Below are positions 1 to 64,000 of a DNA stretch of 64,000 bases, in pieces. This stretch comes from Nannobrachium achirus (taxonomy: Eukaryota > Chordata > Actinopteri > Myctophiformes > Myctophidae): assembly GCA_963921795.1 (NCBI GenBank), contig OY997643.1, positions 10,008,033 through 10,072,032 of the forward strand, given 5' to 3'. A program made the position numbers and the translations under genes. Under the pieces are notes generated by a model that searched no databases, was not told the DNA's origin, and was given only the letters and a program-made list of their open reading frames with translations. Each line of letters starts with the position of its first letter. Positions within the stretch are counted from its first letter, which is position 1.

Positions 1-120
1 GCTTGTAGATCGGCTATTTTCAAATAGTCAAGGTATAAAATAGGGCTAAAGTGGTTCATGTATGTTTTATAATATAATGTAACTAGTAACTTAAGTTTTC
101 AAATAAATGTAGTGGAGTAA
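1..120 (+). mobile_element. ACTTTTACTC-family MITE fragment with half hairpin at window edge
   Basis: Bases 1-21 are a right hairpin arm (GCTTGTAGATCGGCTATTTTC); TAGTAACTTAAG and TGTAGTGGAGTAAAATA follow. Confidence 0.5.
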
Positions 121-121
121 A

Positions 122-575
122 ATACCAGTAAGACTCCCTAATCGGGAGATAAGCGACCGTCAGGTCACATGTATACACCGCTTTGCGTGATTTTAGGAAC
201 AAATCTGTAGGAGCAATGTCCAAAAATGTGTTTGAAAAAATCGGCCTGATGGTGGCGCTAAATGGGACAGATCCATGTTGATGCCAGGACTCTAGACATA
301 CTGTGTACCACTTTGCGTGATTTTAGGGCAACATTTGTGAGAGCAGTGTCCAAAAATGTGTTTTGCAAGAATCGGCCTCATGGTGGCACTAGAAAAGGTC
401 CATGTGAGAAGGGGTGGAGGTTGTGGCGTGGCAGCCAAGGAGTGTGTGTGTGTGTGCAAAGTTTGGCATGGATAGGGGCAACGGTGGCGGAGATATGAGT
501 AGGGGAAAAGTGTGACTTGTGACGTGACTGACAAACATACAGACTGACAGACAGCCGGTGGAGGTTTTCTACTAC
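122..575 (+). mobile_element. Family U element, copy 1, with an inner tandem duplication
   Basis: Starts CCAGTAAGACTCCCTAATCG and ends near CAGCCGGTGGAGGTTTT. Segments 177-275 and 306-403 are diverged tandem copies (CTTTGCGTGATTTTAGG in both). Confidence 0.6.
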
Positions 576-585
576 TAGGCTTGGG

Positions 586-1440
586 TGGTATCAAAGAATG
601 TTTGGTACTGTATTCAAAGGAATCCCAAAGGTATGATTTAATTTAACTCAGTTAGCGCCGGGCGACTTTACGAGCGACTAGTTCACTATGGCGTTTGGTG
701 CCGAGCGACTCGGAGCGACTTTTATATAAAAGCATTGTTTAAGCTTTTAATATGTGTTTATAGACGGAGCGAAATGGTTAGCTTACCTCAGCTAATGTCC
801 ACACGTAAACCGTGAAAAAAAAGGATACGATTATGACGTCACCTTTAAACCAGGGCTTCCTGTTGACAACAGGCCTCTGCTAGCGTTAGCCTCAATGCAA
901 CCATCCGACCCTCACGTAGCTTCACTAGGTCGGATTTTGATTCTGAAACTTTCTGTGTGGCATCTATATACGTCCCGATGCCCATACCAATGGTGGTTTG
1001 AGACGATCAAGCACGAATTGAACAGTATTGAGCTGAAATGGTGACCGGCGGCCCGTCCATGTTAAGTCAATGAGGACCAAGTCAGCGTCTCATCCTGTTA
1101 TGTGGATTTAAACAGGCTTAACATGGGACCATGTCAGTGTATGGTGTATGGTGGTCTCTAGTGGTCATCTGGTGGTATGGTATGGTGAACGTGCATTCGT
1201 TAAGGTGGTCTGGTTAAGGTGGTCTGGGGGGATACAAAATAGCTATTTCCTGGCGTTATAAGCGCACATTCATATTCATATTTTGGAAATCTGGCCCTGT
1301 ATGAGTTAATACAGTCAAAAAATGCAGACCCTCATAAATATGGAAAAGTGAATATTATTGCCAGGCATATAACTTCATCTAGAGATGACTTCCTCCAACT
1401 ACAAAAGCAGTGTAAAAAGAGAAGAAAAGAAGCGCAGCAG
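586..1440. other. No gene recognised
   Basis: Unique-looking sequence with short GAGCGACT and GGTGGTCT repeats (660-720, 1135-1230). At 1450-1488 and 1555-1602 there is an imperfect inverted pair (ATTGTTTCAAAGACGTACT). Confidence 0.5.
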
Positions 1441-1660
1441 CTGGATCAGTTGAACAAAAATTGTTTCAAAGACGTACTCCAAAGGTGTAAATCACATATA
1501 TTTTTTCACTAAAGACGGAGTGCCTTGGGATTCCTTTCTCTGTAAGTCTGCTGTCTACACCTTTGGAATTTAGCAGTACTTCTTTGAAACAAATTGTGTT
1601 CATACAAAAGCAGTGTATAAGTCATCTGCTTTCATTCGCCCGCCCGCCAGGCAGCACCCA

Positions 1661-1767
1661 CCACACACACACACACACACACACACACACACACACACAC
1701 ACACACACACACACACACACACACACACACACACACACACACACACACACACACACACACACACACA
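1661..1767. repeat. (CA)n microsatellite, about 107 bp
   Basis: Uninterrupted CA repeat. Confidence 0.98.
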
Positions 1768-1991
1768 ATCACTTCCATTCATTCAGCCCACTGAAGTGCG
1801 TGTATATAGATCCACCTCCACGCTGAAAACAAGTGTCACAAAGGGTCGTCCAGCATCGCCGTCTGGTTGCAAACCTTTGTGCCGGTGTTGCCAGATTGTG
1901 TGAAAGAAATGTAAGCAACTGCGGGTCTAGGAAAAAAAGTCCAAGGAAGCGACTATAGGCCATGTGAGCACTTTAAAACCTAATACATCAG

Positions 1992-2062
1992 CTATTTGAA
2001 AACAGACAATCCACAAGCTCACAATGTGAACAGTTGTGAGCTTGTGGATCTGCTATTTTCTT
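1992..2062. repeat. Isolated hairpin module
   Basis: GAAAACAGACAATCCACAAG ... CTTGTGGATCTGCTATTTTC; arms diverged, apex enlarged. Confidence 0.65.
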
Positions 2063-61668: not shown

Positions 61669-62000
61669 CAGGGTTCCCCAACAGGCGGCCCGCGGGCCAT
61701 TTGCGGCCCGCGGGGGGCTACTGTCTGGCCCACACCAACCCCAGTAATAATCGTGGTATAAGAGCAGCAACAACACTAGTATATTTTCATTGTCGGGTGG
61801 AAAACCCGTATCTCCAAATGTGTACGCAAAGTAAAGCTCTGCTTCATCAAACAAGGCTGTCGCACAAAAGTAGTGAAAACAGCAGATCTACAAGCACACA
61901 ACGCCAAGTCATTTTTAAAATGATAAATGCAAAACGAACGGTTTTGGACATACAAGATTTTCACCCGACAACGACGATATCTGAACTGTCGTTCAGATAT
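61669..62000 (+). mobile_element. Family H hAT-type element, right half lost
   Basis: Starts CAGGGTTCCCCAACAGGCGG and carries family A copy 13. After the family A end, only CTGAACTGTCG is left before a poly-C run. Confidence 0.8.
61785..61976 (+). mobile_element. Family A element, copy 13, inside family H
   Basis: The left end is eroded (TTCATTGTCGGGTGG), the right end is CCCGACAACGACG|ATAT. Only the left hairpin arm survives (61876-61905). Confidence 0.78.
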
Positions 62001-62039
62001 CGTCCCCCCCCCCCCCCCGTCCCCCCCCCCCCTTGCTAG

Positions 62040-62410
62040 TTTAAATATTGACTTGAACTGTTGTGGCTGTGAGTTGGAGCTGGCTGTCTAAAATTATAGA
62101 CAGCCATCCGAGTCAGATGAGGAGAGGCACGCAGTCACTGCAGTCCAACAACAAGTTGAGGCGATTGAATTACGCACAGAGACAACACAATAGTTAACCG
62201 GTTTTCTTTGGGGCAAAGCTAAGGTTATTTGTGGTGCCATAATGTGCAAGCATTCTCCCACTCTCCCTTCTGTATGTAGGCCATTCACCTCTGCTGGGGC
62301 TACATAATGTTACACTGCAACGTAAAAGCTGATTGATCCAGGTTCAGACAAGGGCACTCTGGATTTATTTTTTGTCTCTGAGGACACCACCTCCTTTTTT
62401 TGTGTAGAGA
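62040..62410. other. Nothing recognised
   Basis: Unique-looking sequence between poly-C and the TAGGGCATTCAC hAT. Confidence 0.5.
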
Positions 62411-62411
62411 C

Positions 62412-62919
62412 TAGGGCATTCACAGAATATTAGAATATTCGAATATCAAAGTCACTATTCAACGTTGTTCACCGAAGTCGAATATTCGCTTATTTATATA
62501 TTTTTTTATTGTTTTCTATTTAAAACATAATATAGTTTATAAAGCGTGGCTAGATAGGAAGTCATAAGAATGAGTTGTCAATGCCTCTGGTGGATGAATT
62601 TGTTAATGCTCTATACCAGGGGTTCTCAAACCTTTTTAGGCCGTGACCCCCAAAATAAACATTTGAACTGGGGACCCCCACCCTGACAAGCACTTGGAAT
62701 TGTAGGTATTACATTTAATGTGACTCGGTTCCACAGATAAATATTGTGAAAATAGCCGATCTACATGCATGTAGACCGGCTATTTTCACAATGTTCGCCT
62801 CTTGCTTTCTTAATATTTGACAGTTTGGCCAGTCCTGTCGAATATTCGACTATCCGAATACTTTGAGGTTGAATAAATTCAAATAGGCCTACTAAAAATC
62901 ACTATTCGTGAATGCCCTA
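62412..62919 (+). mobile_element. hAT-type MITE (TAGGGCATTCAC ends) with family F inside
   Basis: Ends TAGGGCATTCAC and GTGAATGCCCTA; flanks gtagagac / gtagtgac (7/8). A family F copy begins at 62617 and contains a collapsed 50-bp hairpin at 62743-62792 centred on TGCA. Confidence 0.85.
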
Positions 62920-63108
62920 GTAGTGACAGGAACTCTGTTTGGAATGATCCTCCCCTTTCTTAGTCCACTTCCTCCTGGTTGCCTCTGTGGTTATTCCTAC
63001 TTAACAGCAACACTATGTATGTTTAAGGCAGTGGTGCGGCTGCTGTTTTGAGAGATTACTGTGGCACAAGGGTAATCTCTTAATCTGTCAGCAACAACTG
63101 CCTTATTC

Positions 63109-63708
63109 AGGCCTAGAATTATTGAATGCTTTAACCAGTGAAAAATAGCAGATATACAAGCTGACAGCGCGGCACCGAGTGCCGTGCTGTGAGCTTGTAT
63201 ATCTGCTATTTTTGAAAAAGTCGCGAAAATTTGTGCTAATCTTTGAATATGTATTTTCAAGGCGAATGTTTGTAACTCAAATTTTGCTTCTGGGGGGGGG
63301 GGGGGGGGGGGGGGGGGTCCCTGGAACTAAATATTTTGAGATGGGGGTCCGTGGCCAAATAAATATCATTTTGGGGGTCCTTCACATGAAAAGGTTTGAG
63401 AACCACTGACATAGTAGTCTCTCAAGAACAGACTAACTGAGCTCCATTTAAGTGAAAAGGACCTTTTCTTTGACGATGGCTGGCCAGATTGCTGACATAG
63501 AAACATAGGTTTTTCAAAAAAATCTTAGAAGGATTCAAAAGACACTTATAGAACCGGGTCAAAATTCAAATTTTCACGATTTTTCAAAAACAGCAGATCT
63601 ACAAGCTTGCAGCTCTGTGCCGCGCTGTGAGCTTGTATATCTACTATTTTTCAATAGTTAAAGCATAAAATAATGACACACAATAATGTGTACCCGTTCT
63701 AAATGGGT
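63109..63708 (+). mobile_element. Family B twin-hairpin element, copy 6
   Basis: Same layout. Hairpins at 63143-63215 and, partly eroded, 63588-63652. A poly-G run at 63293-63317 interrupts the interior. Confidence 0.8.
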
Positions 63709-64000
63709 TACATGTAGAGTGATGTAAAATGACTTTGTCTTTTAGTTCTACTGGATGTCTTCTCCACTAGTCCCTCCCTAAATAACATCTAGGCTCATTT
63801 TCCTACTTATATCGATCCCAATAACTCAATGACTCATCCCAGCTGTCCCCATAGCATAGAGCCCATAAGCCTATCACTTTTCCACTATTTGTTGCAGACA
63901 AAGGTGTGTTTTTTTCTTTTCTCAATCTGTCACTAGTTGCCATTACACACGCATCCATGCCATCGTTGTCCCACACGAGCCGCCACACTCTGCTAAACAG
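63709..64000. other. Nothing recognised at right edge
   Basis: Unique-looking AT-rich DNA after the family B copy. Confidence 0.5.

Follow-up and report, generated by a model that had tools for sequence, protein, structure and literature searches.

A 71-bp hairpin core shared by non-autonomous DNA transposons with unrelated ends in the genome of Nannobrachium achirus

By description, the nearest named element to the repeat reported here is ANGEL of zebrafish, which has been classed as a palindromic hAT-family repeat (PMC8096273). It has been described as folding into a hairpin, with compensatory changes in both arms in two copies that lie in long noncoding RNAs (lncRNAs) (PMC3636048, in the portion available). 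Here, we analyzed a 64,000-nucleotide stretch of the Nannobrachium achirus genome (assembly GCA_963921795.1, contig OY997643.1, positions 10,008,033 to 10,072,032; referred to below as the window), together with samples from the rest of the assembly, and characterized a palindrome whose 71-bp core lies at the center of several kinds of small transposon. Like ANGEL, as the available text presents it, this is a high-copy, hairpin-forming palindromic DNA element of a fish; unlike ANGEL as described there, the core sits in carriers with different ends.

Three other systems invite comparison. As in nested miniature inverted-repeat transposable elements (MITEs) that are amplified together, one of the carriers studied here, family A, inserts into other MITEs in the usual way and is amplified along with them; ordinary nesting, however, puts no single core into carriers of unrelated ends. 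An ANGEL-like palindrome has been noted inside the hAT element Tol2, and this would be the nearest precedent. Bacterial repetitive extragenic palindromic (REP) sequences are thought to be mobilized by a dedicated enzyme, RAYT. Our palindrome resembles them, in the terms of the summary of PMC3733652, in being short and of very high copy number. MER6, as the accessible part of its report has it, is a Tc1/mariner MITE that carries a V-SINE (short interspersed element) domain (PMC6887750); there, as here, transposons of two unrelated kinds contain a conserved module, which its new carrier amplifies, but in MER6 as so described the module is a SINE domain in one MITE, whereas here it is a hairpin core for which we count at least seven carrier groups within one genome. 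No description of the 71-bp core was found at the level of titles and abstracts in the open-licence literature.

The source genome comprises 1.66 Gb in 564 contigs. Besides the window, we sampled 25 stretches, each 10 kb long, from chosen positions across 20 contigs (C1 to C20, 60.6 to 90.2 Mb) and further loci around exact matches to the arm at the beginning of contig C1 (eight spanning 3 kb and 40 spanning 311 bp); one host was also represented by five copies. The 40 extra hairpin loci all fall within the initial 1.4 Mb of a single contig, and the matches listed from genome-wide searches are the first by position rather than a random draw. In the window, the arm AGCMGATCTACAAG (up to two mismatches) matched 78 times against 0.56 expected, with none of 100 shuffles scoring as high, and on these counts a chance origin of the matches was rejected. 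An arm profile found 90 arm matches in the window, and a stricter set comprised 50 places (35 of them two-armed). The latter figure agrees with the roughly 45 occurrences given by the original prediction, which had been made from the letters of the window, and hairpins of the kind it described were present at all 18 of the coordinate ranges that it listed. Arm matches of at least 13 bits numbered 124 across the 250 kb sampled (of which 11,632 positions are N), with one or more in 21 of the 25 stretches. Genome-wide, an exact 17-mer of the arm occurs 239,977 times and its reversed control not once; exact arm matches of individual families number 15,043 (left) and 16,933 (right) for family A, and 25-mers from the K and J arms match exactly 10,264 and 1,019 times, respectively. 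When segments repeated to a depth of at least 8 were collected from the window and the 25 stretches, 106 of the 168 lay within 150 bp of an arm, which places the carriers among the commonest repeats of this sample; tandem repeats and pieces of these carrier families are among the remaining deep segments. Rfam returned no match above the gathering score in the window, and the arm had no match in viral contigs.

Rather than a complete element, the palindrome is a core hairpin, which measured exactly 71 bp in 57 of the 107 two-armed hairpins in local sequence. Across 63 hairpins, agreement between the arms ranged from 0.73 to 0.98 per position (mostly about 0.9), with two exceptions, the center of the loop (0.14) and core position 9 (described below). 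The base at that center is variable (C in 14, G in 13, T in five and A in four of 36 tips) and usually stands between a purine and a pyrimidine. Among the paired hairpins listed for family K, 7 of 24 had their arms closer together than the usual 83 bp, as though their centers had been deleted, and the hairpin of host M (L049, L065 and L070) has a truncated right arm that runs on into other sequence.

The carriers are several lineages of non-autonomous DNA transposon (MITE) that share the palindrome as their center. Families were labeled from seeds picked by eye, which placed 225 of 312 arms and left 87 without a family; one hairpin (L014:8092) is labeled D though B-like, and clustering of the flanks merged those of F and B into one cluster. 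Units of B, C and D, and probably of H, form a TTAA class. E, F, G, I, K and probably J are hAT MITEs, and A is a MITE with a 4-bp target-site duplication (TSD). Distinct ends with 8-bp TSDs, the mark of hAT MITEs, were recovered for C, E, G, I, K and F' in a scan that took the best pair within 900 bp, tolerated one mismatch and dropped low-scoring rows (mostly B). Perfect 8-bp TSDs were seen in one copy each of C (GTCTAAAG), G (AAAATGTA), I (ACTTTTAC) and K (GGGTCAAA) and for F' (GTGCCTAC and CCGTGTAT); that of E (ACTTAAAT) is identical in four near-identical loci (L001 to L004). J, judging from an alignment of six copies, looks like another old hAT MITE. Family A has an AT-rich 4-bp TSD and ends in CGTCGTTGTCGGG. 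By our count there are at least seven carrier groups in the genome (the TTAA class, A, E, F/J, G, I and K), and the sequence flanking the core differs among host families. The claim that one palindrome occurs in transposons with unrelated ends is thus borne out by TTAA, 4-bp and 8-bp target duplications together with differing terminal repeats.

How the core came to be so widely distributed is the central question, and we lean, with somewhat better than even confidence, toward a joint explanation in which nesting and co-copying are combined with a few transfers of the core by template switching. By the first route, carriers would jump into other MITEs and be copied along with them; by the second, the core would pass a few times between carriers of unrelated ends, most likely when repair or replication switches template at the hairpin and copies the core with a few flanking bases. 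Within a single copy, arm-to-arm copying would keep the arms alike and extend the palindrome into the flank, a process for which the support is statistical rather than direct.

The first route is best documented for family A, which entered at least two hAT MITEs with the core inside it and was afterwards amplified along with its host. The first host occurs at 34664 to 35005 without A and with a single ATAT, and at 37680 to 38239 with ATAT on either side of A (37785 to 38014); three further filled copies (window 17722 and 25999 and L011:3118) are split identically with respect to the empty one. For the second host, in which the target is again ATAT, L011:3777-3919 lacks A where 33602 to 34066 carries it, and a third filled and empty pair (3590 versus 16780) gave only a rough fit. 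Empty sites in two hAT hosts imply that A moved carrying the core and was later co-copied with the host. ATAT stands on the left side in 12 of the 23 A copies listed. Other copies are flanked on both sides by ATTT or TTAT, so the TSD is of 4 bp but is not always ATAT. In one A copy (40221 to 40409), the core is lost exactly. We read this as a deletion because the junction occurs only twice in the genome; as a form that preceded capture it was rejected, given those two occurrences against the 15,043 A left arms.

Insertion of the B, C and D units at TTAA would be a second instance of nesting, to which TTAA flanks enclosing inner terminal repeats point. Inner units of C at 13315 to 13524, 18176 to 18385 and L010:1265-1465 have TTAA at both ends and terminal repeats like CCACTTGAAC. 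In the flanks of 311 arms, TTAACC occurred 47 times, versus 12 after shuffling, and its distance to the core is 36 to 50 bp in 18 of the 47, 92 to 93 bp in 10 and 10 to 11 bp in eight; in B, C and D, one-sided TTAACC ends recur with a fixed spacing. These three families have related TTAA ends with the core 38 to 45 bp inward, and their termini outside the TTAA agree at 10 (B-C), 12 (C-D) and 10 (B-D) of 15 bases, although the consensus stretches were chosen by eye and the P values are therefore optimistic. From the related termini and the TTAACC spacing it follows that common descent explains part of the sharing. The original prediction had its hosts sharing no other internal sequence, but B, C and the ACTTTTACTC hAT have a related TTAA-flanked inner unit; likewise, A, which it had counted as an end host, is itself nested in other elements. 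With A nested in hATs and the B, C and D units related by descent, its number of independent hosts was too high.

The CAGTGTTG hAT, also named there as a host, was rejected as one, since this insertion (44439 to 46493) has a perfect CGTACGCC duplication and the module (46549 to 46621) lies outside it. What it interrupts is a G element, the parts of which flank it at about 44197 to 44438 and at 46493 to 46697, the latter holding the core. This CAGTGTTGGG hAT contains a zf-BED stretch (45601 to 46158, minus strand) that is the sole trace of a hAT transposase seen; such an enzyme would be what mobilizes the hAT hosts.

Several observations suggest that the core itself probably passed between carriers with unrelated ends. 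At core position 29, counting both arms, all arms of A (31/31), C (28/28) and F (18/18) have C, while G is found in families G (5/5), K (3/3) and M (1/1), in four of five H arms (the other has A) and in three of four I arms (the other has C). D is mixed (two G, two A and one C), as is J (one G and one A); all four E arms have A; and the tip of B differs from that of other families. Since the TTAA relatives of C (H, D and B) are mostly without the position-29 C, the variant, most simply, would have originated in C, from which A and F received it, or else have arisen in parallel. The disagreement between module and host that the original prediction proposed to look for is present, in a core variant that joins A, C and F and skips the relatives of C, but it consists of one paired site. 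At L015:1620, a repeat holds an F core with about 35 bp of one F flank and no visible duplication, and relatives of this repeat (L014 and window 59281 to 59480) are without the F core. A and J have flanks in common (AAACTAGTG to one side, CACTACTT to the other), reaching 9 bp past the core on one side.

If a strand switches to its own arm and copies some flank, a palindromic extension is expected. Such an extension adjoins the core in 9 of 11 families (P ≤ 0.02 against shuffles), B and G being those without it. Identity between arms is about 0.9 in the core, 0.65 over flank positions 1 to 5, 0.39 over 6 to 10 and 0.26 over 11 to 40, which is at chance past about 10 bp. At core position 9, in most families, one arm reads GCCGATC and the other GCAGATC (identity 0.37 over the 63 hairpins). 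This is by far the least paired position before the loop, mostly with one orientation per family, and B has A in both arms. In family A, 8 of the 100 left arms listed carried the A of the right arm, and 20 of the 100 right arms listed carried the C of the left. T or G at the left site of A occurred in 701 copies, and G in 4 of the 100 listed; extrapolating from these listed hundreds, the A state would be about forty times commoner than the other transversion. Among A hairpins with both arms listed (n = 33), 23 were CA, five CC, three AA and two AC; among the K pairs listed, read by eye, 20 of 24 were mixed and four CC. These counts fit arm-to-arm copying, but subfamily masters would give the same counts. 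Taken together, the extensions, the arm-to-arm copying and the one capture lacking a duplication would fit template switching at the hairpin, which we infer to be the cause of core transfer.

A number of points weigh against this combined explanation. Each empty site of A is a single copy, and the exact 29-base empty junction of the first host occurs once genome-wide, in the window copy itself. TTAA together with terminal-repeat pairs was found in 3 of 78 hairpins, all of them C (3/9, versus 0/69 for the others), against 33 of 1,000 controls; the fixed TTAACC spacing is stronger evidence than this formal test, which is weak by itself. No empty site for a TTAA unit was found among the local copies of the hAT host of C, and in E, G, I and K neither a vehicle nor an empty site was seen for the core. 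The incongruence at position 29 is one paired site that could be convergent, with several families represented there by one to five arms and the four E arms coming from near-identical segments. As for arm-to-arm copying, the CC and AA copies could come from subfamily masters; the extension is not always private, TAGTG being common to A, J and K; and few private changes affect both arms (10 double versus 74 single), seven of the 10 tracing to one misassigned hairpin or to members of a subfamily. Furthermore, the C/A arm difference is kept in most families, though frequent correction between arms should erase it.

A competing possibility, which we regard as unlikely but worth serious weight, is that one ancestral palindromic MITE of the TTAA type entered the ancestors of all hosts, its ends having since eroded past recognition in A, E, F, G, I, J and K. 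In its favor, B, C and D have related TTAA ends with the core 38 to 45 bp inward, family A supplies an example of nesting with co-amplification, and a TTAA lies 44 bp beyond one arm of F. On the other side of F, however, no TTAA was seen at a similar distance. Erosion of a longer palindrome also sits poorly with arm-to-arm identity at chance past about 10 bp, with extensions beside the core in 9 of 11 families and with a core variant that unites A, C and F. Similarity between families likewise adjoins the core: 13 of 242 pairs of family flanks scored at least 6, against 0.75 expected (the consensus flanks of K and J being built on two to seven copies), and the top pairs listed match next to it. 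Two of the 13 are C-H pairs, and C and H may be one family. Common descent of all the hosts was rejected, as the top pairs of family flanks listed are similar beside the core and the two flanks of a hairpin agree at chance past 10 bp.

We consider it distinctly improbable that the core, together with a few bases, is itself a miniature transposon of some 80 bp (with TA or a similar duplication) that inserted directly into each host. TA does flank the palindrome on either side in A, J and K and, as read from the flanks, in C, but palindromy by itself accounts for a TA at each end, and the bases between TA and core vary by family. At least one flank was common with another copy in 79 of 82 hairpins, and 187 of 209 flank matches had a module arm alongside; the other 22 comprise eight J loci that actually have the core, 10 remnants, two that run into other sequence and two to the core-less A copy, the only one of its kind, whose junction was described above. 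Frequent free hopping of the core was rejected on these grounds. Apart from that one deletion, no flanks closed up without a core were found. Movement of the module by itself is not shown, and rare transfer is the better-supported reading; the overall interpretation of the original prediction is partly supported. Finally, selection on a folded RNA or DNA structure, with similar hairpins arising or converging in several elements, would accommodate the family-specific variants common to both arms and has a published relative for the ANGEL copies in zebrafish lncRNAs (PMC3636048, as far as its accessible text goes), yet the roughly 30 arm bases shared across families are too many for convergence, the window has no Rfam match, and we give this idea hardly any credence.

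Returning to nesting combined with template switching, one might go further and view the core as a parasite of transposons. Having no transposase of its own, it would have crossed at least three kinds of MITE (TTAA, 4-bp TSD and hAT) by template switching at its hairpin, kept itself palindromic and reached hundreds of thousands of arms by way of abundant carriers. We offer this stronger version tentatively, and suspect that it is rather more apt to fail than to hold. Whatever its fate, small elements with the same interior and different ends are easily dismissed as annotation noise, and a single core that can be traced across three kinds of target duplication makes the gain of MITE interiors countable. 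In addition, the C/A difference between arms is a built-in marker for arm-to-arm copying at single loci genome-wide, and hence a natural assay of template switching at palindromes in an animal genome.

The features of the window are collected in Table 1.

Table 1. Core hairpins and their carriers in the window (window coordinates unless a locus is named)
Feature	Coordinates	Strand	Details
Core hairpin in A element	8415..8495		A unit ~8336-8614
Core hairpin in A element	12911..12991		Both arms C at asymmetric site
hAT (CAGGGGTCTTCAACG) enclosing C inner unit	13160..13570	+	Family TSD seen at locus L010
C inner unit	13315..13524	+	TTAA..TTAA; near-identical ends CCACTTGAAC / CAACTTGAAC; core 13407-13479
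Core hairpin in A element	16936..17016		
Core hairpin, A nested in hAT	17715..17799		hAT 17538-18111; asymmetric site swapped
C inner unit	18176..18385	-	TTAA ends; core 18222-18292
Core hairpin, A in hAT	25991..26083		hAT 25720-26419, TSD CTCTATAC
B element	27311..27876	+	Two hairpins (27337-27408, 27766-27822)
Core hairpin, A in CAGGGACGTGCTGG hAT	28887..28977		ATTT on both sides of A; hAT 28280-29220, TSD AAAACAAG
Core hairpin, family F	33295..33376		Extension ATTGTG
CAGGGTTCCCCAAT hAT with A inside	33602..34066	+	8-bp TSD with one mismatch; core 33796-33876
hAT as 37680-38239, minus A	34664..35005	+	Empty site, single ATAT
Core hairpin, family F	36507..36589		
hAT with A insertion	37680..38239	+	A at 37785-38014, ATAT both sides
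Core hairpin in old E-like element	38727..38808		
A copy, core lost exactly	40221..40409	-	
CAGTGTTGGG hAT inserted in G element	44439..46493		CGTACGCC both sides; module-free
Core hairpin of hAT-split G element	46549..46621		G element ~44197-46697
Core hairpin in A element	46852..46932		
I element (CAGTGTTGATTTTG hAT)	54192..54680	+	TSD ACTTTTAC; core within 54414-54506; 11-bp palindromic extension
G element (CAGGGACGTGC hAT)	56038..56471	+	TSD AAAATGTA; core 56109-56165
Core hairpin, family F	57058..57140		
Core hairpin, family F	57697..57779		
K element (TAGGGCTGTCAC hAT)	58435..58821	+	TSD GGGTCAAA; core 58532-58614
B element	59620..60169	+	Two hairpins; TTAACCCATTTAGGCC end just past right side
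B element	63110..63704	+	Two hairpins

Two further observations concern the surroundings of these features. A triple nesting occupies 17500 to 18140, where A lies in a hAT that has in turn been inserted into a C element, the junction showing an 8-bp overlap. Elsewhere in the sample, long tandem arrays run from 1727 to 5031 and from 7424 to 10000 of L022.

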